From Roseateles sp. XES5 (lineage in GTDB: Bacteria > Pseudomonadota > Alphaproteobacteria > Rhizobiales > Rhizobiaceae): a stretch of 64,000 nt of DNA. The translations under genes were made by a program, and so were the position numbers. The DNA is taken from NCBI RefSeq assembly GCF_020535545.1, contig NZ_CP084754.1, positions 310,001-374,000 on the forward strand, in the 5' to 3' direction. This document shows, piece after piece, positions 44,940 through 61,881 of this stretch (positions are counted from its first letter, which is position 1; each line of letters opens with the position of its first letter). The notes beneath the pieces were generated by a model, which was not told where the DNA came from, searched no databases, and was given only the letters and a program-made list of their open reading frames with translations.

Positions 44940-44959
44940 GGTTCGAAGAGAAGAACCGG
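44940..44959 (+). promoter_or_regulatory. Ada-type motif, site 4 (divergent copy)
   Basis: GGTTCGAAGAGAAGAACCGG, followed by AGTTTG. It matches the consensus GATTTGAAAGCAAGGACCGG at 14 of 20 positions, plus AGTTTG as in site 2. It lies 87 nt before the SnoaL-like gene. Confidence 0.55.
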
Positions 44960-45046
44960 AGTTTGGCGACCGCCGCGCTCCGATATCCCTCTCGCAGGTC
45001 ATCGAACGGTTTCGATGCCCGCCCGACTGGAAGAGAGGATTTCTCC

Positions 45047-45502
45047 ATGAGCAAAGAAGAAGACAACAAGGCCGTCGTCGTTCGCTGGTTCACCGAATTC
45101 TGGGGCAAGACCGTCAATCTCGCCGTCGTCGACAAGATCGCCCATCCCGATATGCTGCTGCACTATTCCCTGCACGAACCGCGTCGCGGCCGCGAGGACA
45201 TCAAGGCCTTCATGACCGATTTCCGCGCCGCCTTTCCCGACCTCAACTTCTGGGGCACGGCGGACCTGATCGCCGAGGGCGACCATGTCGTCGGCCAGTG
45301 GGAAGGCGGCGGCACGCATACCGGTGCGGGCTGGGACGATCTCCTGCCCGGCTACGATGCGCTTCCTGCCGCGACCGGCCGCAAAATGCACTTCACCGGC
45401 AAGACCGTGCTGAAGGTGGTCGACGGCATGATCGTCGAGGAGCACGGCCTCGACGACGGCCTGACGGCGATGATGCAGCTTGGGCTGATCCGCAAGGCCT
45501 GA
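45047..45502 (+). CDS. SnoaL-like (NTF2-fold) protein near the ada operon
   Basis: 151 aa from ATG 45047 with GAGAGGA upstream. SnoaL/ester-cyclase type NTF2 fold: NKAVVVRWFTEFWGK, PDMLLHYSLHEPRRGREDIKAFM, FPDLNFWGTADLIAEGDHVVGQWEGGGTH, GRKMHFTGKTVLKVVDGMIVEEH. Such proteins bind or isomerise small hydrophobic compounds; the specific role is unknown. An Ada-like motif precedes it and ada follows, so it may belong to the alkylation response, though its motif is the weakest of the set. Confidence 0.85.
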   Translation: MSKEEDNKAVVVRWFTEFWGKTVNLAVVDKIAHPDMLLHYSLHEPRRGREDIKAFMTDFRAAFPDLNFWGTADLIAEGDHVVGQWEGGGTHTGAGWDDLLPGYDALPAATGRKMHFTGKTVLKVVDGMIVEEHGLDDGLTAMMQLGLIRKA

Positions 45503-45637
45503 CGAAGGGGCGCCCGCCCGCCGGGCTCCATGCAACATTGCGAGAGAACGGGAGGCGCGCACGGATCCGGTGCGGGCCTCCCCGCTTCTGCCGCGCAGCA
45601 AAGCCGGGCCAGCGCAAGAACCGGGTGGTTTTCGTTC

Positions 45638-45657
45638 GATTTGAGAGCAAGGATCGG
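45638..45657 (+). promoter_or_regulatory. Ada-type motif, site 1, upstream of ada
   Basis: GATTTGAGAGCAAGGATCGG followed by AGTGTG; 18 of 20 positions match sites 2 and 3. It ends 57 nt before the ada ATG. The AAAGC-like core resembles the AAAGC of the E. coli Ada box. Probably Ada autoregulation. Confidence 0.75.
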
Positions 45658-45714
45658 AGTGTGGCCGGCGCCGATCGGCGGCACGATCATGCCAGACCCA
45701 TCCGAGCAGAGACC

Positions 45715-46836
45715 ATGGACACGACCATCCGGCCCGCATCACCCCTTCCCCCCTCACCGGCTTCCGTTGCGGACGATCCCCGCTGGGCGCGTGTCCTCGC
45801 GCGTGACAAGTCCGCCGACGGCCAGCTCTGGTATTCCGTTTCGACGACCGGCGTCTATTGCCGGCCCTCCTGTCCGTCGCGCGCCGCGAACCCGAAGAAC
45901 GTCGCCCTGCATGACACGCTCGAAAGCGCTCGCGCGACCGGCTTCAGGCCCTGCCGCCGCTGCAATCCCGATGGCCCGACGCTCGAATGCGAGAATGCCG
46001 CGCTCGTCGCGAAAGCCTGCCGCATCATCGAGGACAGCGAGGAAGAGCCGTCACTGGAGGCGCTGGCGGCCGCCGTCGACCGCAGTCCGAGCTATTTCCA
46101 TCGCATGTTCAAGGCATCGACGGGGCTGACCCCGAAGGCCTACGCCGCCGGACAGCGCGCGAAGAAGGTGCGGCAAGGCCTCGAAACCGGCACCAGCATC
46201 ACCGAGGCGATGTATGACGCTGGCTTCAATTCGAGTGGCCGCTTCTATGAGAAATCGAACGGCATGCTTGGCATGACGCCGACGCAGTATCGCGCGGGAG
46301 GCACCAACGAGGACATCAAGTTCGCCGTCGGCCAGTCCTGTCTCGGCGCGATCCTCGTGGCGTCCAGCACGAAGGGCGTCGCCGCGATCCTGCTCGGCGA
46401 CGACCCGGAGGCGCTGGTGCGCGATCTGCAGGATCGGTTTCCGAAGGCACGCCTGATCGGCATGGACCGCGACTATGAAGCGCTGGTCGCCCGTGTCTGC
46501 GGTTTCGTCGAAAATCCGGGCATTGGTCTCGACTTGCCGCTCGACGTCCGCGGCACCGCATTCCAGCGCCGGGTATGGCAGGTCCTGCAGGAGATTCCCG
46601 TCGGCGAACGCCTCTCCTATTCGCAGGTCGCCCGCCGCATCGGCGCGCCGCGCGCCCGGCGGGCAGTCGCCGGCGCGTGTGCCGCCAATACCCTTGCGGT
46701 CGCCATTCCCTGCCATCGCGTCGTTCGCAACGACGGCGCGCTTTCCGGCTACGCCTGGGGCGTCGACCGCAAGCGCGCCCTGCTCGACCGGGAAGCGCTC
46801 CAGCCCTCGACCGCGCTTGCCGGACGAAGCGCATGA
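45715..46836 (+). CDS. ada: Bifunctional Ada: DNA methyl-acceptor regulator and O6-methylguanine methyltransferase
   Basis: 373 aa. The N-terminal zinc domain has Cys49, Cys53, Cys80 and Cys83 (VYCRPSC, PCRRC); Cys49 corresponds to the methylphosphotriester acceptor. The AraC-type DNA-binding part spans about 95-195 (LAAAVDRSPSYFHRMFKASTG). The C-terminal methyltransferase has acceptor Cys333 in IPCHRV. When methylated at the N-terminus Ada activates its regulon. It overlaps alkA by 4 bp and alkB follows, the classical adaptive-response operon. Confidence 0.97.
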   Translation: MDTTIRPASPLPPSPASVADDPRWARVLARDKSADGQLWYSVSTTGVYCRPSCPSRAANPKNVALHDTLESARATGFRPCRRCNPDGPTLECENAALVAKACRIIEDSEEEPSLEALAAAVDRSPSYFHRMFKASTGLTPKAYAAGQRAKKVRQGLETGTSITEAMYDAGFNSSGRFYEKSNGMLGMTPTQYRAGGTNEDIKFAVGQSCLGAILVASSTKGVAAILLGDDPEALVRDLQDRFPKARLIGMDRDYEALVARVCGFVENPGIGLDLPLDVRGTAFQRRVWQVLQEIPVGERLSYSQVARRIGAPRARRAVAGACAANTLAVAIPCHRVVRNDGALSGYAWGVDRKRALLDREALQPSTALAGRSA

Positions 46837-47474
46837 ACCTTTTTTCACGTTACGATGATTCCGTTGCCTTCCTTGCGGGCCAGGGCGAGGACTGGGCAAG
46901 GCTGATCGATCTGGTCGGGCCATGCCGGCACGATCCCAAGGCCGCCCGTGAACCCTATGAGGCGCTCGTGCGGGCGATTGCCTACCAGCAACTGACGGCC
47001 AAGGCCGGCGACGCGATCATCGGCCGCCTCAAGGGGCTCTTCGCGGACCGGGATTTCCCCACCCCGGACGATCTCGTCGCAGCCAGGTTCGATGCACTAC
47101 GGGCCTGCGGCTTTTCAGCCAGCAAGATCGGCACCATCAAGGCCATTGCACAGGGAACGCTGGACGGCCTGATCCCCGCCCGCACGATCGCGGCCACCAT
47201 GGATGACGAGGCGCTGATCGAGCGCATGATCGCCATCAAGGGCATCGGCCGCTGGACGGTCGAAATGCTGCTGATGTACGCGCTGGAGCGGATGGACGTT
47301 CTGCCCGTCGACGATTTCGGCGTTCGCGAAGGCTACCACGTCCTGAAATCGCTGCCCGAGCAGCCGAAGCCGAAGCAGCTGCGCGCGATCTCGAAGGCCT
47401 GGTCGCCCCATCGCACGGTGGCAGCCTGGTATCTCTGGCGTGTCCCGCGCGAGCGTGGAAACGTTTTGAAATGA
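46833..47474 (+). CDS. alkA: DNA-3-methyladenine glycosylase II (AlkA-like)
   Basis: 213 aa HhH-GPD glycosylase. The helix-hairpin-helix IKGIGRWTVEM is near 135-145 and the catalytic Asp lies in VDDFGVREG (Asp160/161). It lacks the extra N-terminal domain of E. coli AlkA and is the size of yeast Mag1-type enzymes. It excises alkylated purines. The ATG overlaps the ada stop (ATGA). Confidence 0.93.
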   Translation: MNLFSRYDDSVAFLAGQGEDWARLIDLVGPCRHDPKAAREPYEALVRAIAYQQLTAKAGDAIIGRLKGLFADRDFPTPDDLVAARFDALRACGFSASKIGTIKAIAQGTLDGLIPARTIAATMDDEALIERMIAIKGIGRWTVEMLLMYALERMDVLPVDDFGVREGYHVLKSLPEQPKPKQLRAISKAWSPHRTVAAWYLWRVPRERGNVLK

Positions 47475-47515: not shown

Positions 47516-48166
47516 ATGCCCGATCTGTTTGACAGGCTTGCGCCCGCAGACCCCGCGACCGAGATCATGGCGGAGGGTGCGGTGCTGCTGCGCGGCGCGG
47601 CCCTTCCCTACGAAAAGGCCCTGCTTGCCGCGCTCGACGATATCACCGCTTCGTCGCCCTTCCGGCACATGGTCACGCCGGGTGGCTTCACCATGTCGGT
47701 GGCGATGACGAATTGCGGGGCGGCCGGCTGGGTCACCGATCGCACCGGCTATCGCTACGACCGCACCGATCCGCAAACCGGTCTGCCCTGGCCCACCATG
47801 CCGGATTGTTTCCTCGATCTGGCGATCACGGCGGCGGCGCGGGCAGGCTATCCGGACTTTCGCCCCGATGCCTGCCTGATCAACCGCTACGAGCCCGGCA
47901 CCCGCCTGACCCTGCACCAGGACAAGGACGAGCAGGACTTCCGCCAGCCCATCGTCTCGGTGTCCCTGGGCCTGCCGGCGGTCTTTCTGTTCGGCGGCCT
48001 GCGGCGCGCCGAGCCCGTGCAGAAATATGCGCTGCGGCATGGCGACGTCGCCGTCTGGGGCGGCCCGTCACGGCTTTTCCATCACGGCGTTCCCGAATTG
48101 AAGGACGGCTTCCACGAGACCGTCGGACGCATGCGCATCAATCTGACCTTCCGGGGCGCTCTCTAG
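47516..48166 (+). CDS. alkB: AlkB 2-oxoglutarate/Fe(II) DNA demethylase
   Basis: 216 aa. Iron ligands His134 and Asp136 (LHQDKDE) and His190 (FHHGV); 2-oxoglutarate-binding Arg207 and Arg213 in RINLTFR. It oxidatively removes methyl groups from 1-methyladenine and 3-methylcytosine. It begins 41 bp after alkA. Its TAG stop is the first triplet of repeat R4. Confidence 0.96.
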   Translation: MPDLFDRLAPADPATEIMAEGAVLLRGAALPYEKALLAALDDITASSPFRHMVTPGGFTMSVAMTNCGAAGWVTDRTGYRYDRTDPQTGLPWPTMPDCFLDLAITAAARAGYPDFRPDACLINRYEPGTRLTLHQDKDEQDFRQPIVSVSLGLPAVFLFGGLRRAEPVQKYALRHGDVAVWGGPSRLFHHGVPELKDGFHETVGRMRINLTFRGAL

Positions 48167-48657: not shown

Positions 48658-48677
48658 GATTTGAAAGCAAGGACCGG
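48658..48677 (+). promoter_or_regulatory. Ada-type motif, site 2, upstream of ogt
   Basis: GATTTGAAAGCAAGGACCGG followed by AGTTTGACG. The 20-mer is identical to site 3. TTTGAC just after it may be the -35 box. It ends 62 nt before the ATG of the ogt-like gene. Confidence 0.8.
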
Positions 48678-48739
48678 AGTTTGACGCGGCAGCCCCGGCC
48701 CTAAGGTTCAGCCATCCCATCAAGCACGGAGTGACGGCA

Positions 48740-49306
48740 ATGAACCTGATCCTTAAAATGAATGCGCTGCGGCCGAGGCTGCAGGTAAAATCTTCCGCGA
48801 CGCCCGCTGACATCCTGTCCTATGCCATCGCCGATTGCGACCTCGGCAAGGTGTTGGTCGCGCGCAGCGCAAAGGGTGTCTGCGCAATCCTGCTCGGTGA
48901 CGATGCAGAGGAACTGACCGCCGATCTCGCTGCCCGCTTCCCGAAATCCACGCTCGTCCTTGGCGAGGAGGCCGTGAAGGGAGATGTCGCCGAAATCTTG
49001 CGCTACATGGCAAAACCCTCCGGCGGCCTTCACCTGACGCTCGACATGCGCGGCACGCCGTTCCAGCGCCGCGTCTGGGAAAAGCTTCTGACCATCCCGG
49101 CTGGCCAGACGGTCAGCTACCGGGACCTGGCGCGCTGGATCAGCCCGCTGGCCAGCCCGCGCGCCGTCGGCAATGCCTGCGCCGCCAACCCGCTCGCGCT
49201 GGCCATCCCCTGCCACCGCGTCCTGCGCGGCACGGGGGAACTCGCCGGTTATCGCTGGGGCATCGAGCGCAAACGCACTCTCATCGAGAAGGAAGCTTCG
49301 GCATGA
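48740..49306 (+). CDS. ogt: Methylated-DNA-protein cysteine methyltransferase (Ada C-domain type)
   Basis: 188 aa from ATG 48740; a GTG at 48731 is less well spaced. Acceptor Cys158 lies in IPCHRV, with RGTPFQRRVWEKL and GNACAANPLALA. It is closer in layout to the Ada C-terminal domain than to site-3 Ogt: the KGVCAILLGDD segment matches Ada KGVAAILLGDD. It repairs O6-alkylguanine. It overlaps the next gene by 4 bp. Confidence 0.93.
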   Translation: MNLILKMNALRPRLQVKSSATPADILSYAIADCDLGKVLVARSAKGVCAILLGDDAEELTADLAARFPKSTLVLGEEAVKGDVAEILRYMAKPSGGLHLTLDMRGTPFQRRVWEKLLTIPAGQTVSYRDLARWISPLASPRAVGNACAANPLALAIPCHRVLRGTGELAGYRWGIERKRTLIEKEASA

Positions 49307-50052
49307 GCAGGACCGCGATCAATCAGGACCCGTCTTCCGCGGAAGTATCCGCGGAAGCCCGGATTGCCGCCTATGACTGGCAGGGGCTTGCCGGCGAACT
49401 TGACGGCTTCGGCTGCGCCGTGCTGCCCGGCCTCCTCACGCCCGAGGAATGCGCCAGCCTCGCATCGCTCTATCCCGAGCAAAGCCATTTCCGCAGTCAT
49501 ATCGTCATGGCGCGGCATGGCTTTGGCAAGGGCGAATACCGCTACTTCAGATATCCACTGCCCGATCTCGTGGGCGACCTGCGTACGGCGCTCTATCCGC
49601 GCCTTGCCGGCGTCGCCAACCACTGGAACGAACGGATGGAACTGGACCAGCGTTTCCCCTGCACGCATGCCGCCTTCCTGCAGCAATGCCATGCCGCCGG
49701 CCAGACCCGGCCAACACCGCTCCTGCTGCAATATGGCCCCGGCGATTTCAACTGTCTTCACCAGGATCTCTACGGCGACCTCGCCTTTCCGATCCAGGTC
49801 GCGATCCTGCTCTCGGAGCCGGGCCGCGACTTCACCGGCGGCGAATTCGCCTTGACCGAGCAACGTCCGCGCATGCAGAGCCGCGTCGAGGTCGTACCGC
49901 TTCGCCAAGGTGACGCCGTCGCCTTCGCCGTCCACAATCGTCCCGTCCAGGGCACGAAGGGCAATTACCGCGTGAACCTGCGCCACGGCGTCAGCCGCGT
50001 CCGCTCCGGCATGCGCCATACCGTCGGCATCATCTTCCACGACGCGCGCTGA
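49303..50052 (+). CDS. 2OG-Fe(II) oxygenase, co-expressed with ogt
   Basis: 249 aa. The double-stranded beta-helix ligands are His153 and Asp155 (CLHQDLYGDL) and His211 (AVHNRPVQG), with Arg238 for 2-oxoglutarate. It is a prolyl-hydroxylase-like group, not AlkB: the AlkB RxNxTFR end is missing and VGIIFHDAR takes its place. It overlaps ogt (ATGA) and so falls under Ada-motif site 2. It could be a second nucleic-acid demethylase or a protein hydroxylase in the alkylation response. Function not known. Confidence 0.88.
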   Translation: MSRTAINQDPSSAEVSAEARIAAYDWQGLAGELDGFGCAVLPGLLTPEECASLASLYPEQSHFRSHIVMARHGFGKGEYRYFRYPLPDLVGDLRTALYPRLAGVANHWNERMELDQRFPCTHAAFLQQCHAAGQTRPTPLLLQYGPGDFNCLHQDLYGDLAFPIQVAILLSEPGRDFTGGEFALTEQRPRMQSRVEVVPLRQGDAVAFAVHNRPVQGTKGNYRVNLRHGVSRVRSGMRHTVGIIFHDAR

Positions 50053-50110: not shown

Positions 50111-50665
50111 CTACCAGCCGGGATAGAGCGCGTAGAGCCGGGCCCAGTCCCGCAAGGCGCCGCTGCCGCGCAGACAGGCAATCGCCTCGGCGGCATGCCA
50201 GGTGCATGGCACGCGGCGCAGCCAGACATTGTCCTTCCCCGCCCGATAGAGCCAGACGATGGACGCGGCCATCATCTGGCGGACCTCGGGCATCGCGCGA
50301 TAGTCGGCCCGCCACAGCGCCATGCTGGACGGGTCCACGTCGTCCCGATGATAATCGTAACCGGTCGGCCGGATCGCATGATGATAGGGCGCGTGCCCGT
50401 CATCGCGGAACAAGGCTCCCAGAGCATAGAGATCGATGACATCGCGCAAATGACGGTCGAACGGGCGCGCGACGCCTGCCATGGGCTGCAGGAGATCGAT
50501 CCCGAGCATATCGGAGAGCCGTTCGATGTCGTCCTCGTCCAGTTCGAGCCGCGCCGCGACCAGCCGCGCCAGGCGGTAGCCGGGAAAACGGTCGCGCGCG
50601 GCGTCGACGGATGCGAAGGACAGCCGGATGACATCGAGCGGCTCGGCCAGGGGAACAGCCGCCAT
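50111..50665 (-). CDS. Hypothetical protein co-transcribed with the second methyltransferase
   Basis: 184 aa from ATG 50665, one base after the methyltransferase stop, so it is strongly coupled. No signal peptide or membrane helix. Features are LDEDDIERLSDMLGIDLLQPM, an HRDDVDPSSMALWRADYRAMPEVRQMM segment and several His/Tyr clusters (PYHHAIRPTGYDYH). I do not recognise a family. Under Ada-motif site 3 it is a good candidate for an undescribed alkylation-response factor. Confidence 0.75.
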   Translation of the reverse strand: MAAVPLAEPLDVIRLSFASVDAARDRFPGYRLARLVAARLELDEDDIERLSDMLGIDLLQPMAGVARPFDRHLRDVIDLYALGALFRDDGHAPYHHAIRPTGYDYHRDDVDPSSMALWRADYRAMPEVRQMMAASIVWLYRAGKDNVWLRRVPCTWHAAEAIACLRGSGALRDWARLYALYPGW

Positions 50666-50666
50666 G

Positions 50667-51176
50667 TCATTCCGCCGCAACGCGCCGTTCGCGGGCCAGA
50701 AGCGCCTGCTTGCGGCGGACACCCCATCGATAGCCGGAAATCGAGCCATCCTTCTTGATGACACGATGGCAGGGCACGATCACGGCGATGGGATTGCCGG
50801 CGATCGCGGCCGTCACCTCCCGCGGATCGCGTGAACCGAGCCGCGCCGCCAGCGCCCCGTAATTCGTGGTCTGGCCGGCAGGAGTGTCCTGCAGCATGCG
50901 CCAGACCTGAACCTCATAGGGGGTGCCGCGCAGATCGAGCGGCAGCTCGCAAGGCCTTGCGGGATCGTCGATCGCACCGGCCAGGATATCGATCATGCCG
51001 GCAAGCTCTTCCGGACGATGGTCGAGCGCAGCGTCCGGAAACCGGGCGCGCAGCGCGTCCTCCATCGCGGTGCGCATGGCGCTGAATTCGAGCGCCACGA
51101 TCCCGCTGTCCGACACGGCGACGACAAAATCGCCAAGGGAACTGGTTCCCCACGCAAATCGAATGGTTTCACGCAT
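50667..51176 (-). CDS. Methylated-DNA-protein cysteine methyltransferase (second)
   Basis: 169 aa. Acceptor Cys136 in VPCHRV, with RGTPYEVQVWRML, and SGYRWGVRRKQALL near the end. It is a stand-alone Ogt-type enzyme, the third O6-alkylguanine methyltransferase domain in 6 kb. Site 3 lies 59 nt upstream. The downstream hypothetical gene is in the same unit. Confidence 0.94.
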   Translation of the reverse strand: MRETIRFAWGTSSLGDFVVAVSDSGIVALEFSAMRTAMEDALRARFPDAALDHRPEELAGMIDILAGAIDDPARPCELPLDLRGTPYEVQVWRMLQDTPAGQTTNYGALAARLGSRDPREVTAAIAGNPIAVIVPCHRVIKKDGSISGYRWGVRRKQALLARERRVAAE

Positions 51177-51235
51177 CGTCCTGACCTCTCGTTCGTTGTG
51201 AAGTCAGTCTAGAGACCGATGCGCCTGGCCACCCT

Positions 51236-51255
51236 CCGGTCCTTGCTTTCAAATC
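51236..51255 (-). promoter_or_regulatory. Ada-type motif, site 3, upstream of second methyltransferase
   Basis: On the minus strand GATTTGAAAGCAAGGACCGG, identical to site 2 over 20 bases, then AGGGTGG. It ends 59 nt before the ATG at 51176. Confidence 0.8.
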
Positions 51256-51435: not shown

Positions 51436-52347
51436 TCAGCCCAGCCTGCTGATACCGTCGAAGAAAACCTGAACAACATCAGAAACCTTTGCATCGACGC
51501 AGACGCTGACGCGTTGCGACTTGCGCTCCGTCAGCGACGTCTTGCCTGCCGTGTCGCCGGTCAGGCAGACATCGACATCGCCCTCCTGAACTGTGAACAG
51601 CTCGGGTCTTGTCGCCGCGATAATTGTCGCCGGATCGTGCAAGCTGCATCCCGGCGCTCCGCGGTCGAGGTAAACATCGATGTAGAGGTCCGAAATCGCC
51701 GCAAGGAACCCGCCAAACGTCGGTGAACGTCTTTTGAGTTCAGCGAAATCGGCTTTTGTCATCGACGTCCGGTCAGTGACATCGAGACCGACGAGAGTGA
51801 CCTCAGCCCCGGAGTCGAAGACGATCTGTGCGGCGTCCGGATCGTTGTAGATATTGGCTTCTGCATAGGCCGTCACATTGCCGGTAGCGTGCACCACGCC
51901 TCCCATAACGACGATTCTCGCGACGTTCGAGGCAAATTCCGGATCACGCTCGATTGCCATGGCAATGTTGGTGAGCGGGCCGATCGCGAATACGACAAGC
52001 TGGCCTTTCTGCTCTTTGGCCTTGGCAACAAGGAAGTCGGCAGCATCGTGATCGACGGCATGTGTTTTGATCGCGGGGGCATCGAGGGCGCCAAGACCCT
52101 GCTTGCCATGAATCCAGAACACCGGTTCCCAAGGACGCCTCTTGAGAGGAGAGGACGCGCCCTGGGCAACAGGAACGTGTCGTCCCAGCATTTCAACGAG
52201 GTGGAGAGCGTTGCGTGTGGACATTTCAACTGGAACATTCCCGTAGACAGTTGTCAGCCCGATCAGGTCGATCTCGGGACAGGACGCCGCAAAGAAGATT
52301 GCCATCGCGTCGTCGATACCGGGGTCAGTGTCGATAATTGCCTTCAT
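51436..52347 (-). CDS. Inosine/uridine-preferring nucleoside hydrolase
   Basis: 303 aa. The calcium-site motif DTDPGIDDAMA is at residues 6-16 (Asp6, Asp8, Asp12, Asp13) and the later active-site segment SLHDPATI is present. It splits ribonucleosides into base and ribose in the cytoplasm. It lies 79 bp beyond the ABC ATPase stop, after repeat R5, as the probable last gene of the LacI-controlled operon. It would act on nucleosides released by the SahH-like and deaminase steps. Confidence 0.93.
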   Translation of the reverse strand: MKAIIDTDPGIDDAMAIFFAASCPEIDLIGLTTVYGNVPVEMSTRNALHLVEMLGRHVPVAQGASSPLKRRPWEPVFWIHGKQGLGALDAPAIKTHAVDHDAADFLVAKAKEQKGQLVVFAIGPLTNIAMAIERDPEFASNVARIVVMGGVVHATGNVTAYAEANIYNDPDAAQIVFDSGAEVTLVGLDVTDRTSMTKADFAELKRRSPTFGGFLAAISDLYIDVYLDRGAPGCSLHDPATIIAATRPELFTVQEGDVDVCLTGDTAGKTSLTERKSQRVSVCVDAKVSDVVQVFFDGISRLG

Positions 52348-52361
52348 GTCGTTTCGGTGTC

Positions 52362-52429
52362 TCTAAATTCTTTTGTTTTCGTTTGTCTTTTCGGGAAAAC
52401 CGGTTCCCACTTTTCCCTGACAAACTCTA
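52362..52429. repeat. Intergenic repeat R5, inverted copy of R4
   Basis: On the minus strand it begins TAGAGTTTGTCAGGG and ends GAATTTAGA, matching R4 (48164-48231) at 67 of 68 positions. The TAG is the ABC ATPase stop. It separates the ATPase from the nucleoside hydrolase and could reduce read-through. Confidence 0.9.
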
Positions 52430-53455
52430 GGCGTTGATCGACTGTCGGCCTGCCGACTGCAATTTTCCCTGTGCATCAAAGCGATAGAGGCCAGCCTCGT
52501 TGGGCGATAGGGCGACCTGGTCCCCTATTGCGTATTTGGCCTTTCCAGGTTGCCGCGCAATAACCGGAGCTTGCGAGCCTATATCGACCCAGATGTGGTT
52601 GTCCGCGCCCAGGTTTTCCGAATGAATGACCCGTCCAGCCCAAACGCCATTTTCCGGGACGATCTCGACGGCTTCAGGCCTCAGGCCAAGCGTATGCGTG
52701 TTGAAAACAGCCGCATGCTCGCCGGTTAGAAAATTCATCTTCGGCGATCCGATAAAACCGGCGACGAACAGGGACTGCGGTTTTTCATAAAGTTCCATTG
52801 GCGTGCCGATCTGTTCGATTCGCCCTCCGTTCAGCACCACGATACGGTCTGCCAAAGTCATGGCCTCGACCTGGTCGTGTGTGACGTAGATGATGGATGC
52901 ATGAGGCATTTGCACCTTGAGCTGCGCCATCTCCAGGCGCATGTGCACGCGCAGATCGGCGTCCAGATTGGACAGTGGCTCATCGAACAGGAACACCTTG
53001 GGGTCACGCACGAAGGCGCGGCCAATCGCCACTCGTTGCCGCTGCCCGCCCGACAACTGCGACGGCAGCCGGCCGAGCAGCTCGGTCAAATGCAGTTTCC
53101 GGGCAGTTGTCTCGACTTTGGCGCGGATCGCCTCTTTGTCGAGACCTTGCATCTTCAGGGAAAACGCGATGTTGTCGAAGACAGTCATATGCGGATAGAG
53201 GGCGTAGTTCTGGAACACCATCGCCATGCCGCGCTTTGCGGGATCGATGTTCTCGATCGGCCTGCCGTCTATGGTCATTGTCCCGCCGGAAATGCTCTCC
53301 AGACCGGAGATGCAGCGTAGTAATGTCGACTTGCCGCATCCAGATGGACCGACGAAGGCAATAAACTCGCCCGTGTTGACGTGCAGGCTGATATTCTTGA
53401 GGACGTGAAATGCGCCGAAGCTTTTTTCAAGTCCGCTGATCCTAAGTTCCGACAT
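52427..53455 (-). CDS. CUT1 ABC importer ATPase, UgpC/MalK-like
   Basis: 342 aa from ATG 53455. Walker A GPSGCGKSTLL, signature [12 protein letters not shown], Walker B FLFDEPLSNLD and a C-terminal regulatory domain are present. The start overlaps the amidohydrolase by 14 bp. CUT1 ATPases usually serve sugar importers. Here the operon enzymes point to nucleoside-like substrates. Confidence 0.93.
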   Translation of the reverse strand: MSELRISGLEKSFGAFHVLKNISLHVNTGEFIAFVGPSGCGKSTLLRCISGLESISGGTMTIDGRPIENIDPAKRGMAMVFQNYALYPHMTVFDNIAFSLKMQGLDKEAIRAKVETTARKLHLTELLGRLPSQLSGGQRQRVAIGRAFVRDPKVFLFDEPLSNLDADLRVHMRLEMAQLKVQMPHASIIYVTHDQVEAMTLADRIVVLNGGRIEQIGTPMELYEKPQSLFVAGFIGSPKMNFLTGEHAAVFNTHTLGLRPEAVEIVPENGVWAGRVIHSENLGADNHIWVDIGSQAPVIARQPGKAKYAIGDQVALSPNEAGLYRFDAQGKLQSAGRQSINA

Positions 53456-54743: not shown

Positions 54744-55560
54744 TACCGCCTCCAAATCCTGCTGCCAGCGACTTCTGTGCGAGCACAAACACCAGAAGCA
54801 TGGGTATGAGCGACACGAGAGCAGCCCCCGCCTGGCCCTGAAGATTGACGGTTTCACGCGTCGACAGCGTCGTCGCCGCCAGTGTGAGCGTATAAGCCGA
54901 AGGATCGCCCTGCAGCAGGGTCGCCGCAACGAGCAGGTCGCCAAAGGTCCACACGAAAACGAGCGCGATCACCGACGCCAGCGCGGGTCGGGACAAGGGT
55001 ACGCCGATATGCCAGAAGCTTCGTATGACACCGGCACCGTCAAGCCTTGCGGCCTCGAGTACCTCTTCGGTCAATGACTGACGGAAGAAGGTTTGGATCA
55101 GATAGATCGCAAACGGGAGGCTGGCGACACCCTCGATGATGCCGGCAATCGCGACATTGTTGATCAAACGCATGCCGGCGAGAACGACAAATACCGGGAT
55201 CAGCCAGGCAACGATCGGCACCGCATAGCCTGCGATGAGAATGACGCTGAGCTTCGACGCGACCCGCCCCTTGTGCAGCCGGAACCAGAATGCGCCCGGC
55301 AGTGCGGTTGAAATGCACACGAGGCAGGCGATGACCGACACCACCAGCGACATCAAAAGTGCCTGACCGAGATTGGCTTGCGTCCAGGCGAGCACGATGT
55401 TGTCGATTGTAAACGACTTGGGCAGACCGCCCGGAGCGGACACGTAATCCTGCCGTGTACGCAATGCAGTTCCGACGAGAAACAGCAGCGGAACAATGAA
55501 GACCAGGCTGATCAAGGTCATGATCGCCGTCTTGACCTTGCTGACAGAGCTACCGTTCAT
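54733..55560 (-). CDS. CUT1 ABC permease, MalG-like
   Basis: 275 aa from ATG 55560. Six helices with EAA loop (LEAARLDGAGVIRSFWHIGVPLSRPALA). Coupled by ATGA to the partner permease upstream and by an 11-bp overlap to the amidohydrolase downstream. Confidence 0.93.
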   Translation of the reverse strand: MNGSSVSKVKTAIMTLISLVFIVPLLFLVGTALRTRQDYVSAPGGLPKSFTIDNIVLAWTQANLGQALLMSLVVSVIACLVCISTALPGAFWFRLHKGRVASKLSVILIAGYAVPIVAWLIPVFVVLAGMRLINNVAIAGIIEGVASLPFAIYLIQTFFRQSLTEEVLEAARLDGAGVIRSFWHIGVPLSRPALASVIALVFVWTFGDLLVAATLLQGDPSAYTLTLAATTLSTRETVNLQGQAGAALVSLIPMLLVFVLAQKSLAAGFGGGSEK

Positions 55561-56498
55561 CGCGCCAGCTCCCTTGCAAGTCCCGCGCGATGGCTTGGGC
55601 GGCGCAGACCAGCTACGGCCACCCTGCAAAGATACGCCATCGCCGGAAACAGTATGATCGCGGCGACGAGGGTAACGGACTGCGCCGCTGCCGTTCCGTA
55701 AAATCCGAACCGCATGAATTGCTGGTATATGGTGAAATCCATCGTCGCGCTGGCAAGCCCCGGGCCACCACCCGTGAGCACATAGATCCAGCCGAACATG
55801 AACAGGAAGATCGAGATGACCTGAAACATCGCCCAGAACGAAACGGTCAGCTTCACACTGGGTACGGCGATGTACCAGAACTCGCTCCAGAAGCCTGCGC
55901 CATCAAGCTTGGCCGCCTCGAAGATTGAGGTTGGCACTGCCGCGAAAGCCGCCGAGAAGATAAGAACGCCTGTTCCGAAGCTGACCCAAAGAACCAGGAA
56001 TATAACGACCGGCTTTACATAGTCGGCGTCGGTCAGCCACGGATGCGCCAGGGCGCCAAGCCCCATGGCCGTCAGCGCCGCATTCACCGGGCCGTCGGTG
56101 GTCAGGAGCGTGCGGAAGATAAGGCCCACGATTGCCGGCGACATAACCGCGGGAAGAAAATAGATCGACCGGAAAAGGCCGGGACACCAGACGCCATCAC
56201 GCAACGCGAAAGCCACGACCAGCGGCGCCAGGACCCAAAGGGGCAGGCCGAGCAGATAGAAAAGCTGATTGCCCACCACGGTCCAGAAATCACGATCGGC
56301 AAACAATGCCCGGTAATTGTCGAGACCTATGAAAGGTGAAACGCCTCCCGGCTGCCAATCATGAAGCGACTGAAACCCGACGTAAAGAAGGGGAAAGAAG
56401 ATGACCAGGCCGACGAGAATGATGGCTGGCAGAACAAGCACCAGACCACCATCTATCGAGGCTCGCCAACTGTTTCTCATGAACGCGTTCATTGCCAT
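55557..56498 (-). CDS. CUT1 ABC permease, MalF-like
   Basis: 313 aa, about six helices, EAA loop FEAAKLDGAGFWSEFWYIAVP. It begins 18 bp after the binding-protein stop. Mets at residues 1, 3 and 7 are all possible starts. Forms the translocation channel with the next gene. Confidence 0.92.
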   Translation of the reverse strand: MAMNAFMRNSWRASIDGGLVLVLPAIILVGLVIFFPLLYVGFQSLHDWQPGGVSPFIGLDNYRALFADRDFWTVVGNQLFYLLGLPLWVLAPLVVAFALRDGVWCPGLFRSIYFLPAVMSPAIVGLIFRTLLTTDGPVNAALTAMGLGALAHPWLTDADYVKPVVIFLVLWVSFGTGVLIFSAAFAAVPTSIFEAAKLDGAGFWSEFWYIAVPSVKLTVSFWAMFQVISIFLFMFGWIYVLTGGGPGLASATMDFTIYQQFMRFGFYGTAAAQSVTLVAAIILFPAMAYLCRVAVAGLRRPSHRAGLARELAR

Positions 56499-56516
56499 GC
56501 GCCTTCGCTGCCGATC

Positions 56517-57815
56517 TCACTTGATCTTGGAATATGCGCTTTGCGCCGCGTCGATGAACTCTTTCGTGGGCATGGTGCCACTCAACAAGGGAACGGCATT
56601 TCGTTCGATCACGGCCAGAACGGGCAGCGGATAGGCGGCAAAGCCCGTATGGTTTTCCTTGTTGGCCAGCAGGGCCAGGTATTCCGCCTGGATCTCGGTG
56701 GCCTTCGACGCCTTGAAATCTGCAAGGTTCGGCGGGACTGCAATCCGGTCCCACAGTTTTTCCTGAGCTTCCTTTCCGGCAATGAAGTTGACGAAAGCGG
56801 CAGCTGCTTCCGGATTCTTCGTCCATTTCGTCACCGCCCAACCGCCCTCGGCACCGGCGTCGATCATGCTCGCGTGGACAGAATTGGGTACCTGAGGCAA
56901 GGGCAGCACAATGGTATCGGTCTGATCCGAAGAGGCGCTCGCCGCACCGTTTACGTTGCCGACGATATGCATCGCTGATTCGCCCGACGAATACTGGATC
57001 GTGGTGTCGTCATACATGTTGCGACCCAGCGATCTATCATCGCCGAAGCATCCGGCGGCATTCATTTCGAGAACGTAGTTGGCGGCATCGACAAAGATCT
57101 TGTCGTCCATTTTCAACTCGCCCTTGACCCATTTGGCGAGCGTGGGCTTGTCCATCATCTGGCTGGTGAACATGTACATGTACGTTTCCAGCAGATAGCC
57201 GTCCTTCCAGCCCGAAGATATCGGCTGGATACCCTTCTGTGAAAGAGACTTGCAGGTCTCCAGCAGACCTGACCACGTTGCGGTTGCCGTCTTGGGATCG
57301 ATGCCGGCCTCGGCAAACTTCTTTACATTCGCCAGCATGACATAGCCGTAGCTGCCGGTGGGGACGATGTAGAGATTGCCGTCGATCGAGTAGTTTTCGT
57401 CGACGAACTTAAGCTGGGGACGCAGATCGGCCGAGATCACGTCTTGCAGCGGAAACAGGCCGTTCTTGTAGCTGTAGGCCTGTGCCGCACCATACATGGT
57501 GATGACGTCGGGCCCGCTCTGCGCCACCAGGGAATTGCGTACTTGGTCGAAATAGGTGCCGTAGGGCATGTCGACGAGGTTTATCGTCACCTGCGGATGC
57601 AGCGCCTGAAAGTCCTTGATAAGCTCATTGTAGGCCTCCGGCCCGGCCGGGTAGTTGCTCGGCAGGAAAGACCAGACCGTCAAGGTCGCCTTGGCATCCG
57701 GAATCGGACCCGTGCTCAGTTTATCGGCAGGGCCCGACTCGCCCGAGCAGCCCGCCAAAACCACCGTCAACCCAAGTACCGCGGTTGACGCCATCATCCC
57801 TTTTGAACGCTTCAT
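56517..57815 (-). CDS. CUT1 solute-binding lipoprotein
   Basis: 432 aa from ATG 57815 (GAGG six bases upstream); the ATG at 57827 is possible. Lipobox VLAGC with Cys23 marks a lipoprotein, less usual for a binding protein in Gram-negatives. Family-1 binding-protein features include LTVWSFLPSNYPAGPEAYNELIKDF and WAVTKWTKNPEAAAAFVNFI. It captures the ligand for the permeases downstream. Confidence 0.93.
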   Translation of the reverse strand: MKRSKGMMASTAVLGLTVVLAGCSGESGPADKLSTGPIPDAKATLTVWSFLPSNYPAGPEAYNELIKDFQALHPQVTINLVDMPYGTYFDQVRNSLVAQSGPDVITMYGAAQAYSYKNGLFPLQDVISADLRPQLKFVDENYSIDGNLYIVPTGSYGYVMLANVKKFAEAGIDPKTATATWSGLLETCKSLSQKGIQPISSGWKDGYLLETYMYMFTSQMMDKPTLAKWVKGELKMDDKIFVDAANYVLEMNAAGCFGDDRSLGRNMYDDTTIQYSSGESAMHIVGNVNGAASASSDQTDTIVLPLPQVPNSVHASMIDAGAEGGWAVTKWTKNPEAAAAFVNFIAGKEAQEKLWDRIAVPPNLADFKASKATEIQAEYLALLANKENHTGFAAYPLPVLAVIERNAVPLLSGTMPTKEFIDAAQSAYSKIK

Positions 57816-57831
57816 TTTTGCCCTCATCCCG

Positions 57832-59067
57832 TTACCAGCTGCGCATTGCCAATTCGAGTTCTTCGGTCATCGGTTCCACTACACCGCCCTCATGGAGCAG
57901 GCGGATTTCGGCTACGGCCCGCTCGGCGCCCGGCGGAATATCGTAAAGTCCGGGCGCCCGTCTCGAACCGTCGACCACCAGTTGCTCGACAGCGATCGCC
58001 TGAAGCGACAGCGACAGATCCATGACCTCGATCGGGTTGCCCTCGGCCCCTGAACAATTGACGCAATCGCCGTCTGCGACGACCCGGATACGCGCGCCAC
58101 CGGGCAAAACGTACTCGACAACGTCTGCGCGCACGTCCTTTGCCGTGCCCAGCGTGCGCAGATAGTCCATCGGCAATTCGAAGCTGCCTCCGCCCGCGGT
58201 GCAGAGGAACGCCCCATCCCGCATTGCGCGCACATGCGCCTCCGTCACCACACCCGCGATACCCGTCGAAGCGAAAACGACTTCCGCTGTCGGGACGGCA
58301 AGCGCGACGCTTCGCGCCGAAAAACCATCGTGAACCGCCTGCAACGCCTTGATGGGGTCCAATTCGGCCACGACCACGCGAGCGCCAAGCGCTGCGGCGT
58401 GCTTTGCCACGCCCTTGCCTACCCAGCCGTAACCAATAACGAGGACTTCGCGGCCGGCGAGCTGCAGGTTGGTGACATCAAGAAAGGCCATCACGCAGGA
58501 CTGGCCCGTGCCATAAACATTGTCGAACAGGTGTTTGACAGGTGAATCGTTCACCGCGATGACCGGTATGCGAAGCTCGCCTGCTTCTTCCATGACGCGC
58601 AACGGCCTCACGCCGCTGGTCGTCTCCTCCGCCGCCCCAATCATCCGTGAGACCAGTGCCGGAAACTCCCGATGCGCAAGCCGGATGACACTGGCTCCAT
58701 CGTCGATGATTATCTCCGGATCGGTGTGCAGGAATGCGCGCGCATGATCGAGATCTTCCTCGTCACCCGCCGAAGAATGCGCGAACACCTCGATACCTTG
58801 CGCCCTCAGGGCGTCGGCCGTAGCGTCGTCAGTCGAATTGCCGGCGCAATAGACGCTCACATGCGCACCCGCATCGCGCAGCATGAGCACCAAAGAGGCC
58901 GTCTTCGGTTCCAACACGAGCGCGACGCCAATCCGTCGACCACGGACAGTACCGCTCGCGACGAGACGCTGTTCGATTGAACGAAGGACGGGCATGCCGC
59001 GCCGCGCCCATGCAATACGTCGGGCGCCGGCTTCCGCGCGGTGGATCGTTTCGGTTCTGTTTGTCAT
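57832..59067 (-). CDS. SahH-like protein B, with altered GHF site
   Basis: 411 aa from ATG 59067, overlapping the upstream paralogue stop (ATGA). Compact archaeal/thermophile-type S-adenosylhomocysteinase fold. Catalytic equivalents are present: Asp122/123 (IDDGA), Glu147/148 (EETTSG), Lys178 and Asp182 (NDSPVKHLFDN). The NAD motif is GYGWVGKGVA. The conserved NxGHFDxEID segment is replaced by TAGGGSFELPMD, losing the active-site His. It may use a different thioether nucleoside or be a partner of paralogue A. Confidence 0.88.
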   Translation of the reverse strand: MTNRTETIHRAEAGARRIAWARRGMPVLRSIEQRLVASGTVRGRRIGVALVLEPKTASLVLMLRDAGAHVSVYCAGNSTDDATADALRAQGIEVFAHSSAGDEEDLDHARAFLHTDPEIIIDDGASVIRLAHREFPALVSRMIGAAEETTSGVRPLRVMEEAGELRIPVIAVNDSPVKHLFDNVYGTGQSCVMAFLDVTNLQLAGREVLVIGYGWVGKGVAKHAAALGARVVVAELDPIKALQAVHDGFSARSVALAVPTAEVVFASTGIAGVVTEAHVRAMRDGAFLCTAGGGSFELPMDYLRTLGTAKDVRADVVEYVLPGGARIRVVADGDCVNCSGAEGNPIEVMDLSLSLQAIAVEQLVVDGSRRAPGLYDIPPGAERAVAEIRLLHEGGVVEPMTEELELAMRSW

Positions 59068-60344
59068 GATCTGGTCAATCCTTCGATCCACTGCGCGATA
59101 TCGTCCTGCTGCTCGGAACGCGCGGCATCCAGCCTGATGCCCATACTCTCGAGCTTTGCCATGGCGATCGCGTTGTCGAGCGCCGCTGGGATCACGTGAA
59201 CACCCGGCTGAAGGCCGCCTGTCACCAGATGGTGCGCACCCAGCGCCTGAACCGCGAAAGTAAGATCCATGATTTCGACCGGGTGGCCGCTGCCCCCGGC
59301 GATATTGACCAGTGCTCCGCCCGACAGAACATGCAGCTCGCGGTCGTTCAACCGGAAGGTCGTGATGCCCTCCCGCGGCTCAACGCGGTCGAGGGCTGCT
59401 GCAGCCAGCGCATCAACATCGATCTCAAGATCGTGATGTCCGGCGTTTGCGAGCATGACGTCATCGTCAAGATAACCGAACTCCTTTTCGCCAATGGCGC
59501 GCATGCCTCCGGTGGCGGTCACCACCATGGTCGAACCCGGGAGCATGTCGGCGGCGCAACCCACTCGATGACCGTCCATCAGGGCTTCCAGGGCGCGGAC
59601 CGGATCGATCTCGATCACCCTCGTGCTGGCACCCATCGCCTTTGCATAGAGCGCAACCCCGCGTCCGACATAACCGTAGCCGACAACGGCGACCCTGGCC
59701 CCCGCAATCTGGCGATTGCTCAGCCGCAAGATCGCTTGCAGGCTGGTTTGCCCGGTGGCGTATCTATTGTCGAACAGATGCTTGCAGCGCGCGTTGTTGG
59801 CGGTCAGCGCAGGGAAAGGCAGCTTGCCGGCCAGATAGAGCGCCTCCAGACGTGCGGTGCCGGTCGTCGTTTCTTCGGAAACACCCTTTAGTCTGGCAAA
59901 AAGCTCCGGGCGAAACTTCGCCATCCGCATGGTCAACTCGGCCCCGTCGTCAATGACATAGTCGGGCTGCCAATCCGCTGCGGCAAGCAGTTCGCGCTCC
60001 CACGAGACATGATCGCCGTCGGGCTCCGAAACGACCTCGAGGCCACGTGCCCTCAACGCCTGGACAACGGATCCGCTGGTGGTACGAGGATTGCTGCCTG
60101 CAACGGCGACTTCCGCACCGGCGTCGGCCAAAACGGTCGCAAGGAAGGCCGTCTTCGCCTCCAGATGCACCACCACGGCAATCTTGACGCCGCGCAACGC
60201 GCCATCCCCGATCACGTTGCGTACGAAGCCGTTGATCACCGGTGAGTGACGATCCACCCAATCTATCCTGGCAACGCCTTCCAGCACGTCCGGAGACCCA
60301 TTGCCGATGCCCGGATACTGGAGCTCCCTACTCGATTCCATCAT
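59064..60344 (-). CDS. SahH-like protein A (archaeal-type S-adenosylhomocysteinase)
   Basis: 426 aa. Catalytic residues aligned with the family: Asp132/133 (IDDGAELT), Glu157/158 (EETTTG), Lys188 and Asp192 (NNARCKHLFDNRYATGQTS), GHHDLEID near 302-308. NAD motif GYGYVGRGVA is at 222-231. FDNRYATGQTS is typical of the short archaeal/Thermotoga form, unlike the longer housekeeping AhcY of alphaproteobacteria. It would split SAH, or S-inosylhomocysteine, into homocysteine and nucleoside. First gene of the LacI-controlled operon. Confidence 0.9.
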   Translation of the reverse strand: MMESSRELQYPGIGNGSPDVLEGVARIDWVDRHSPVINGFVRNVIGDGALRGVKIAVVVHLEAKTAFLATVLADAGAEVAVAGSNPRTTSGSVVQALRARGLEVVSEPDGDHVSWERELLAAADWQPDYVIDDGAELTMRMAKFRPELFARLKGVSEETTTGTARLEALYLAGKLPFPALTANNARCKHLFDNRYATGQTSLQAILRLSNRQIAGARVAVVGYGYVGRGVALYAKAMGASTRVIEIDPVRALEALMDGHRVGCAADMLPGSTMVVTATGGMRAIGEKEFGYLDDDVMLANAGHHDLEIDVDALAAAALDRVEPREGITTFRLNDRELHVLSGGALVNIAGGSGHPVEIMDLTFAVQALGAHHLVTGGLQPGVHVIPAALDNAIAMAKLESMGIRLDAARSEQQDDIAQWIEGLTRS

Positions 60345-60391
60345 GTCGAATGCCCTATCGGATCGTTTGATAAACGGTCTGTTCCTGGCAA

Positions 60392-60405
60392 TCTAAGCGC
60401 TTAGA
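60392..60405. promoter_or_regulatory. LacI-type operator
   Basis: TCTAAGCGCTTAGA is a perfect 14-bp palindrome with the central CG typical of LacI/PurR-family sites. A weaker CAAGCGCTGC follows at 60418-60427. It is 47 bp before the operon start and 103 bp before lacI. Confidence 0.8.
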
Positions 60406-60508
60406 AATTGAGCTTGTCAAGCGCTGCCAAGACAATCTGTTGAACTCAGGAAGGGTTTTCTGGTAATCGCGATAGACGGAAGGTCAGCAATTCAGAGGCA
60501 GATCGCGA

Positions 60509-61492
60509 TTGTCAGGACGCACGCAACGCCCAACTTTGGCCGACGTCGCGAGGCTTGCTGGAACCTCGACGGCTGTCGTGAGCTACGTTCTAAACGATGG
60601 CCCGCGCCGCGTTTCCTCAAAGACCAGAGCGCAGGTGGAATCTGCGATCGCCGCACTCAACTACCGGCGAAATCCACTCGCCAGCGCATTGATGGCGGGT
60701 GCTTCAAACCTCATCGGCCTCATCGTGCCGGATTCCTCGAATGCCTTCTTCAGCGAACTTTCCCGCGAATTCGAGCGCGAAGGCAAAGCGCGCGGATATC
60801 TCACGCTGCTCGGCAATTCAGCCTACGATTCTGCCGCCGAGGAAGAATATGAGCGGGCCATGTCGGACCTGCGCCCACGTGGCATCTTCGTGACCAGCAT
60901 CAATGGCGAGCCGGCGAAACTCGACGGTTGCCCGCGCATCTTCGTCCATTCCGCGCCGCCGGGCGTAACAGACCCCTGCGTGGTCTTCGACGATTTCGGC
61001 GGCGGTGTCGAAGCCACCCGCCACCTCATCGACCGAGGCTATCGGGACATCCATTGCGTGGCGGGCCCGAACGATTTCGGTCCTTCGGGAAAGCGTGTTG
61101 GCGGCTGGCTCCACGCCATGAACGAGGCAGGACTTACGACCACGGCTCGGCTTCACCGCGTGCCTTACGAACGGATTGGAGCCGCACGTGTGGCCCGGAT
61201 ACTGTTATCCGGAGCCACCCCACCACGCGCTCTTTTCGCGGCGACGGATGAGCAGGCGCTGGCTATCCTCAGGGTTGCGGGAGAGCTCGGCATGAAAGTT
61301 CCCGATGACGTGGCGATCGCTGGATTTGACGGCATTCGCGAGGCTCTCGACGGCAGTGTGCGCCTTACAACCCTGAGCCTGCCTTTTCGCGAACTGGCGG
61401 AGCGTGCGTTCAAGATGCTTGATACATGGACCAGCGGCGATGCACGGTCATGTGTGATTTCCGGCTCACTGACGATTGGGGAAACAACCTGA
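60509..61492 (+). CDS. LacI-family transcriptional regulator
   Basis: 327 aa from a TTG at 60509; AGAGG lies about ten bases upstream. HTH: TLADVARLAGTSTAVVSYVLND, hinge with NYRRNPLASALM, then a periplasmic-binding-like sensor domain. A CG-centred palindrome lies between it and the SahH-like operon on the other strand. It is the likely repressor of that operon. The ligand could be a nucleoside. Confidence 0.92.
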   Translation: MSGRTQRPTLADVARLAGTSTAVVSYVLNDGPRRVSSKTRAQVESAIAALNYRRNPLASALMAGASNLIGLIVPDSSNAFFSELSREFEREGKARGYLTLLGNSAYDSAAEEEYERAMSDLRPRGIFVTSINGEPAKLDGCPRIFVHSAPPGVTDPCVVFDDFGGGVEATRHLIDRGYRDIHCVAGPNDFGPSGKRVGGWLHAMNEAGLTTTARLHRVPYERIGAARVARILLSGATPPRALFAATDEQALAILRVAGELGMKVPDDVAIAGFDGIREALDGSVRLTTLSLPFRELAERAFKMLDTWTSGDARSCVISGSLTIGETT

Positions 61493-61674
61493 TCCACCCC
61501 CGTCTGCAACGCGACCGCTCGATCGCGCTGCATGCCGGTCAACCAGGCTTCGACGTCTTGCAGCTCACCTGCACGAACAGAGCAGCGGCGCTCCAGTCCT
61601 GGCTGTTCATTGGCGTTCTACGCGCCTCAGGCATCCTGAGGATCTCGCGCCGAAGATGGGATGCCGCACTTGCT

Positions 61675-61779
61675 AGAGCATTTCCAGCCGAAGCGGGATC
61701 GCTTCGGCGTCGGATAATGCTGTAAAAACAAAAAGCCAGAGCATTTCCGGTGAACCCGATTTCACCGGAAATGCTCTAG
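61675..61779. repeat. Rhizobial palindromic intergenic repeat, copy R6 (complete)
   Basis: Begins AGAGCATTTCCAGCCGAAG, with hairpin GCCGAAGCG-GGAT-CGCTTCGGC, CGTCGGATAATG and AAAAACAAAA, then a perfect 17-bp hairpin (61738-61754 with 61761-61777, loop CCCGAT). It is the fullest copy in the window and the reference for R1 and R3. It occupies the middle of the 449-bp space between lacI and the 61942 gene; the rest of that space holds the Ada-like motif pair and no gene. Confidence 0.9.
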
Positions 61780-61816
61780 GCACTCGATGCGCCGCAACAC
61801 TCAGTTTACGGCGCTG

Positions 61817-61836
61817 CCTATCCTTGCCTTCAAATC
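61817..61836 (-). promoter_or_regulatory. Ada-type motif, site 5a (minus strand)
   Basis: On the minus strand GATTTGAAGGCAAGGATAGG: 17 of 20 match the consensus. It faces away from site 5b. No gene begins within 100 bp downstream of it on that strand. Confidence 0.55.
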
Positions 61837-61861
61837 GCATTCCGGGTCGGCGCCGATTTCC

Positions 61862-61881
61862 GATTTGAAGGCAACATTCGG
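61862..61881 (+). promoter_or_regulatory. Ada-type motif, site 5b
   Basis: GATTTGAAGGCAACATTCGG then AGCGCAG; 15 of 20 match. Ends 60 nt before the ATG at 61942, the same spacing as sites 1-3. Confidence 0.65.

Follow-up and report, generated by a model that had tools for sequence, protein, structure and literature searches.

Introduction

In a window of 64,000 nucleotides from Roseateles sp. XES5 (the whole stretch of DNA analysed here, positions 310,001 to 374,000 of contig NZ_CP084754.1), a 20-base-pair motif recurs upstream of ada, which encodes the adaptive-response regulator Ada, and of two genes for O6-methylguanine-DNA methyltransferases, ogt1 and ogt2, which raises the question of what protein reads the motif and how far it extends beyond this locus. 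A sequence-only reading of the window had proposed that it is the Ada element of this lineage and that it defines a local regulon of five units. Our comparisons strongly support an operator and a regulon, with Ada as the very probable reader of the motif. We consider it highly probable that it belongs to an Ada of the Escherichia coli type and has three parts, an A box (GAT), a B box (GCAA) and an X box (CGGAG), the last being read by the second helix-turn-helix of the protein through arginine R176, and that Ada activates the local units from it.

The motif and its parts

A rescan of the window returned the five copies of the sequence-only reading with the same coordinates and match counts: exact matches to the 20-mer at 48658-48677 (plus strand) and 51255-51236 (minus strand), and partial ones on the plus strand at 45638 (18/20), 61862 (15/20) and 44940 (14/20). 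It was also right that at four of the five the motif ends 57-62 nucleotides before a start codon, the distances being 57 bases for ada, 62 for ogt1, 59 for ogt2 and 60 for the gene at 61942. A sixth copy, absent from that reading, lies at 61836-61817 on the minus strand (17/20). Four matches with at most three mismatches were found in the window against none in 100 dinucleotide shuffles, and five places with at least 15/20 against 0-1 in six mononucleotide shuffles; the score of the 44940 copy taken alone is within chance, nine places in the window having at least 14/20 (0-5 in six mononucleotide shuffles). The scan of the genome and its relatives that had been proposed as a check gave five matches with at most three mismatches in 5.81 megabases (none for the reversed-pattern control) and, in the genus, matches before repair genes, and a genome-wide repeat was rejected on this count. 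Two matches in the window's genome were rejected as regulon members, one (G000:C1:706746) because it has no CGGAG and the other (G000:C1:2951866) because its B box reads GCAT, though CGGAG is present.

The A/B part reads GAT-TTGARA-GCAA at ada, ogt1 and ogt2 and GAT-TTGAAG-GCAA at 61862, and CGGAG stands four bases past GCAA at these four strong sites and past AGAA at 44940. The arrangement of an E. coli operator (A box, six bases and GCAA, upstream of a -10 element) is present at 45638, 48658, 51255 and 61862, always with G as the first base of the A box, and is missing at 44940. Between the B box and the -10 there is, however, a further conserved element, CGGAG, and the four strong sites also have the GCAA followed by CGG of a Cada2-type operator, with a spacer of four. 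The other marks of that type, a missing A box and a regulator without the A-box domain, are not found here, the A box being conserved and Ada carrying PF02805. A -10-like hexamer follows 22 or 23 bases past the X box (TAAGGT, TAGACT, TATCGT and TATCCC; CACGAT for ada), a -10 element at fixed spacing as in a sigma70-type promoter, and no clear -35 hexamer was seen at the window sites. Across 114 sites, TAnnnT was found at offset 22 in 36 and at any other offset in at most three (shuffle maximum 7), and A at offset 23 in 104.

The window Ada joins zinc, AraC-type helix-turn-helix and methyltransferase domains in a single protein, as an EcAda-like (E. coli Ada-like) regulator does, and scores 428.7 bits against the Ada equivalog NF011964 of NCBIfam (cut-off 345). 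By alignment, R56, R82 and R130 are the kept counterparts of R45, R71 and R118 in E. coli Ada, and R176 aligns with the RLHD arginine of one Cada2-like protein of the genus (L043) with no gap nearby. With the profile of the two-helix domain, MarA, Rob and SoxS align across both helices. In AraC-type domains the second helix-turn-helix contacts DNA roughly a turn downstream from where the first does, and the 8-base offset from B box to X box fits this; a contact between R176 and the X box is our best inference.

In the mechanism that we propose, C49 of Ada (the equivalent of C38 in E. coli) would take a methyl group from a DNA phosphotriester, upon which Ada would bind the operator. The zinc domain (R56, R82) would read the A box GAT, the first helix-turn-helix (R130) would read GCAA six bases past it, and the second (R176 of RFYE) would read the X box CGGAG four bases past the B box. 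Bound Ada would sit just upstream of a sigma70-type -10 (TAnnnT, usually 22 bases past the X box) with no clear -35, and from that position it should activate ada(-alkA-alkB), ogt1 with an oxygenase gene, ogt2 with the gene of a 217-amino-acid protein, the 61942 gene and perhaps a SnoaL gene. Binding, its dependence on methylation, the R176-X box contact, the operons and the induction are what we infer from these comparisons.

Conservation of the predicted operator

Across 101 genomes (that of the window, G000, and 100 relatives) the 20-mer was matched 13 times with at most two mismatches, in six genomes; 12 of these matches are upstream of ada, ogt1 or ogt2, and the remaining copy is cut by a contig end. 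A position weight matrix was trained on the genus sites themselves, so that its scores serve as description only. In G000, G014 and G020 strong sites stand before ada, ogt1, ogt2 and a 61942-type gene, in G010 and G011 before ada, ogt1 and ogt2, and in G003, which has no close Ada, before ogt2 and the 61942-type gene. Among 21 genomes of the genus, operators with CGGAG and at most three mismatches to the 20-mer are confined to G003 and to five genomes with a close Ada (81-100% identity, the window's included). In G014, G020 and G003 the 61942-type gene is a neighbour of ogt2 and divergent from it, with 44-45 bases between the two operators, and the 61862-type operator is kept before it there; in the window 10.6 kilobases separate the two. 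At locus L071 of G003 the operators of ogt2, the 61942-type gene and SnoaL are nearly identical to those of G020, with no close Ada; the G003 sites may be orphan operators or may be under the Cada2-like protein. Distant Ada matches (32-33%) occur in G012, G014 and G015, and the two inspected, L040 (G015) and L060 (G012), are a second, distant Ada (about 33% identity) that has the zinc domain and lacks the RFYE arginine.

Loci of ada farther afield were collected with the first 211 residues of Ada as queries (E-value limits 1e-35 for the family, 1e-30 for the class and 1e-30 for the phylum; the sets overlap), and matches were found in 32 of 218 family, 99 of 387 class and 85 of 397 phylum genomes. 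Of 135 Ada loci, 134 of them from Alphaproteobacteria and one from E. coli, 89 have GCAA-N4-CGG, where N is any base, in their upstream DNA (3.7 on average and 8 at most in shuffles), the other spacings from 0 to 10 giving 3-11. The A/B part, [AG]AT-N6-GCAA, lies upstream in 67 (shuffles: mean 2.8, maximum 8); N7 gave 21 and the remaining spacings 5-10. Outside the class (46 loci, including E. coli) the B and X boxes were found in 13 (shuffle mean 1.3, maximum 5; N5 gave 6) and the A/B part in 29, and the whole set of 198 loci gave 115 and 103, respectively. Judged by eye, many loci without GCAA-N4-CGG have a changed first recognition helix and miss the A/B site too, and the E. coli group (f214) mostly has A/B boxes without CGG at the N4 spacing. 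Two departures were observed: at L111 and L113, where the second helix of Ada reads SSNFYA, the element upstream is a diverged one, ATTTAAAAAkAAGATTTGCrG, and L236, L237 and L238, from one genus and with an Ada lacking R176, have GCAA-N3-CGGGG instead of N4, N3 being the spacing reported for Cada2.

The exact 22-mer pattern, searched in one genome per species, gave at least 119 stretches, of which the 80 listed were examined (81 sites), and the counts that follow are among these listed matches. A frame homologous to a window gene starts 20-260 bases downstream of 69 of the 81 sites; 12 have no such homologue, two of them because the sequence ends there. The 69 targets comprise 44 Ada (three cut by the sequence end), 18 stand-alone methyltransferases (10 nearest ogt1, 2 nearest ogt2 and 6 nearest the Ada end), one SnoaL and six oxygenases, relatives of the window's oxygenase thus carrying an operator of their own in some other genomes. 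All 41 Ada proteins behind an exact motif with an alignment over position 176 have RFY. By eye, the exact motif also precedes genes unlike those of the window, for EamA-type transporters (L337, L345), flavin-reductase-like proteins (L336, L383), pyridoxal-phosphate-dependent decarboxylase-like proteins (L354, L370) and a membrane protein (L313), which are candidates for further Ada targets.

The local Ada regulon of the sequence-only reading is supported by the motif's recurrence, both in the genus, in front of ada, ogt1, ogt2 and 61942-type genes, and across the Alphaproteobacteria, in front of ada, and its Ada operator is also backed by the genes downstream of the exact motif (69/81 among the matches listed); the abundance before unrelated genes that it had named as speaking against it was not seen at these sites. 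The restriction to this lineage did not survive, since exact copies precede ada not only in Alphaproteobacteria but, among the matches listed, also in Beta- and Gammaproteobacteria and a planctomycete.

The X box, R176 and other explanations

In 106 loci with an A/B site, picked blind to the X box, CGG follows the A/B site in 74 of 88 loci with R176 vs 2 of 18 without it (Fisher p 4e-9), and counted by genus in 46 of 58 vs 1 of 10 (p 5e-5). The 54 sites of proteins with F177 comprise 38 with CGGAG, 11 with CGGGA and five with other endings; where residue 177 is L, V or I, 29 of 32 sites have CGGAT, a pairing of residue 177 with the last X-box base that goes back to one change of the residue on the tree. 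The correlation between R176 and the X box is strong in counts, with few independent changes behind it.

Several observations weigh against the three-part reading. The tree gives no proof that the R176-X box link is independent of descent, with three independent pairs on supported branches and six on all, and the sign test on the tree is not significant (median p 1). L096 and L098 have P at position 176, yet keep CGGAG, and 36 of 123 loci with R176 have no GCAA-N4-CGG upstream, including L086 and L087 (Ada 75% identical) and L114 of G012 (Ada 55% identical). Under the strict TAnnnT rule about one site in three has a clear -10, the hexamer of the window's ada being CACGAT. In the window Ada, S126 and Y127 take the place of F114 and H115 in E. 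coli Ada, and the N-terminal Ada chains in the PDB (92-146 residues) end before the second helix-turn-helix.

The X box could instead belong to the core promoter and be contacted by RNA polymerase, as an unusual -35 or through the alpha or sigma subunit, with Ada reading the A and B boxes only, which we regard as possible but rather unlikely. Its place, 22 bases ahead of the -10, directly adjoins the usual -35 position on the upstream side, at window sites that have no good -35 hexamer, and the tree test gives no proof of a protein-DNA link. However, the A/B sites of proteins without R176 are mostly without CGG (16/18), and the Cada2-like genes of the genus, of which 16 of 21 were inspected (that of the window's genome included) and all encode RLHD, have CGG at the same distance from GCAG (GCAG-N4-CGG) in 15 of 16 cases by eye, L045 being the exception. 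Moreover, in Caulobacter, according to the portions of PMC10957082 drawn on here, scrambling of the whole B+X motif abolishes induction, and the R114A change of the RLHD arginine in Cada2 compromises promoter binding.

That the sites are wholly or partly under the Cada2-like protein which the window's genome encodes (G000:C1:1677225), reading B+X, seems improbable, since a Cada2-like match is present in 21 of 21 genomes of the genus and the sites in six, the A box is conserved at the sites with no such conservation visible by eye upstream of Cada2-like genes, and sites precede ada itself across the class; in its favour, G003 has sites and no close Ada, and the Cada2-like protein of the window's genome has RLHD and its own upstream GCAG-N4-CGG. 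We give hardly any credence to a residue of duplication, in which ada, ogt1 and ogt2 are paralogues carrying a copied promoter. These genes do have a methyltransferase domain in common, but by eye the likeness is confined to the operator and the -10, the bases between them vary, and duplicated promoter DNA was rejected because no shared flanks were seen. Moreover, genes without homology to these, namely the 61942 gene and those for PF09859 oxygenases and SnoaL, have the operator in front of them as well, and its conservation extends across classes.

Genes under the predicted operators

With the three-part Ada operator as the preferred reading, the predicted operators and the genes behind them are collected in Table 1.

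Table 1. Predicted operator sites in the window and the genes downstream of them
Feature	Position	Strand	Remarks
Degenerate operator upstream of SnoaL gene	44940..44961	+	GGT; AGAA at B-box position; CGGAG kept; -10-like TATCCC 44984-44989
SnoaL-like protein, 151 amino acids	45047..45502	+	Pfam PF07366
Predicted Ada operator of ada	45638..45659	+	GAT-N6-GCAA-N4-CGGAG; putative -10 CACGAT 45682-45687; kept before ada in relatives
ada, 373 amino acids	45715..46836	+	Pfam PF02805 Ada zinc domain, PF12833 two-helix-turn-helix AraC domain, PF01035 O6-methylguanine methyltransferase
alkA-like HhH-GPD DNA glycosylase	46833..47474	+	Pfam PF00730; frame overlaps ada end
alkB, DNA oxidative demethylase	47516..48166	+	Pfam PF13532; NF011930 347.2 bits, cut-off 267
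Predicted Ada operator of ogt1	48658..48679	+	GAT-N6-GCAA-N4-CGGAG; -10 TAAGGT 48702-48707; kept in G010, G011, G014, G020
ogt1, O6-methylguanine-DNA methyltransferase	48740..49306	+	Pfam PF01035, TIGR00589
PF09859 oxygenase (Oxygenase-NA)	49303..50052	+	Pfam; overlaps ogt1 end
217-amino-acid protein	50111..50764	-	Overlaps ogt2 end; homologous stretch beside ogt2 in G014, G020, G003
ogt2, second O6-methylguanine-DNA methyltransferase	50667..51176	-	Pfam PF01035, TIGR00589
Predicted Ada operator of ogt2	51234..51255	-	GAT-N6-GCAA-N4-CGGAG; -10 TAGACT 51211-51206; kept in G003, G010, G011, G014, G020
A/B boxes without X box or -10	61815..61836	-	GAT-TTGAAG-GCAA-GGAT-AGGCA; inverted relative to 61862 site
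Predicted Ada operator of 61942 gene	61862..61883	+	GAT-N6-GCAA-N4-CGGAG; -10 TATCGT 61907-61912, 23 bases past X box
129-amino-acid protein (61942 gene)	61942..62331	+	17 homologues, best 94% in Shinella sp. G-2

The ada gene and the alkA-like glycosylase gene probably form an operon, and the 217-amino-acid protein is probably encoded by an operon partner of ogt2; neither this protein nor the 129-amino-acid protein of the 61942 gene has a match in Pfam or NCBIfam profile searches. The latter is predicted to be a new member of the Ada regulon, and three of its more distant homologues (L082, L083, L084) have no operator site upstream. As to the proposal that five units form one regulon, four are strongly supported, but the unit at 44940 is not their equal: weak when taken alone, this site has its support from comparison, through synteny and through a SnoaL homologue in a distant organism. 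The promoters of SnoaL orthologues in G020 (L065:3244) and G003 (L071:8606), which carry GATTCAAAGGCATGAAACGGAG, are homologous to the DNA flanking it, and the exact motif lies upstream of a 70%-identical SnoaL in a Schlesneria metagenome-assembled genome (L319); on these two grounds the SnoaL gene is a plausible regulon member, the operator of which would have decayed in the window.

Some further features of these loci were observed. Between 61815 and 61875 two A/B boxes (GATTTGAAGGCAA) stand in inverted orientation, the minus-strand one without X box or -10, and this one is possibly the relic of a lost divergent unit. Adjoining the 61942 promoter, at 61675-61780, arms of the form agagcatttcc...ggaaatgctct were seen by eye, perhaps a rhizobial intergenic repeat. 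The stretch from 51436 to 61492, between ogt2 and the 61942 gene, holds by eye nucleoside hydrolase-like and amidohydrolase-like genes, parts of an ATP-binding cassette transporter, two tandem adenosylhomocysteinase-like genes and a LacI-type regulator. The Ada island of G020 (L065:8637-11539) has the oxygenase gene in triplicate, at 57-86% identity to that of the window, and one copy has its own weak operator.

Comparison with known systems

The A and B boxes of E. coli Ada operators are described in PMC4437013 (in the portions drawn on here), and the upstream regions of E. coli ada, alkA and aidB contain AAT-N6-GCAA. The order of the two boxes and their 6-base spacing are the same as at the window sites, the alkA box AATATGAAAGCAA is identical at 11 of 13 positions to the form at ogt1 and ogt2, GATTTGAAAGCAA (AAT-ATGAAA-GCAA vs GAT-TTGAAA-GCAA), and the two Ada proteins have the same domain make-up. 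The claim of the sequence-only reading that the motif differs from the E. coli box beyond an AAAGC core is therefore contradicted, the difference being the added CGGAG, which E. coli ada, alkA and aidB lack at that spacing. The A box is GAT in the window and AAT in E. coli, and in the second helix-turn-helix the window Ada has R176 where E. coli Ada has S. The distance from B box to -10 is 31 here, nearer to that of E. coli ada and aidB than of alkA, with the E. coli -10 elements by our own placement.

In Caulobacter, Cada2, which lacks the A-box domain, uses GCAA and CGG (PMC10957082, same portions). The window system resembles it in a B box followed by CGG and in an arginine of the second helix-turn-helix (RLHD there, RFYE here), but Cada2 has neither an A-box domain nor an A box in its operator, whereas the window sites have A, B and X boxes, and the B-X spacer is published as three bases for Cada2 and is four here. 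In the set tabulated in that source, as far as those portions go, EcAda-like organisms have E. coli-like features and Cada2-like ones Caulobacter features. The Ada boxes of Pseudomonas putida alkA and gcdH (PMC3788762) have the A box and GCAA six bases apart, as here; the portions of that paper used mention no third element, and the window sites have one. No A+B+X operator for an EcAda-like protein was found in the literature searched by topic, mostly without subscription papers and figures, and, among the matches listed, papers that contain short motif strings look unrelated by title and abstract.

The predicted operator combines elements of E. coli and Caulobacter. We lean, by a little, towards a wider view in which the three-part A+B+X operator is widespread for EcAda-like regulators in Alpha- and Betaproteobacteria, and partly beyond, is read by the zinc domain and the first and second helix-turn-helix in series, and serves a regulon that includes the 129-amino-acid and SnoaL-like proteins. 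On this view E. coli, which has neither X box nor R176, and Caulobacter Cada2, which has neither A box nor zinc domain, would be opposite reductions of one plan and not two paradigms of their own. A local motif would lead to a precise, testable map of DNA recognition by one of the best-known DNA-damage switches, and with the 22-base operator and its -10 the Ada regulons of many bacteria could be predicted, new members of unknown function among them. It also suggests that two forms of the adaptive response, published as distinct, may be connected.

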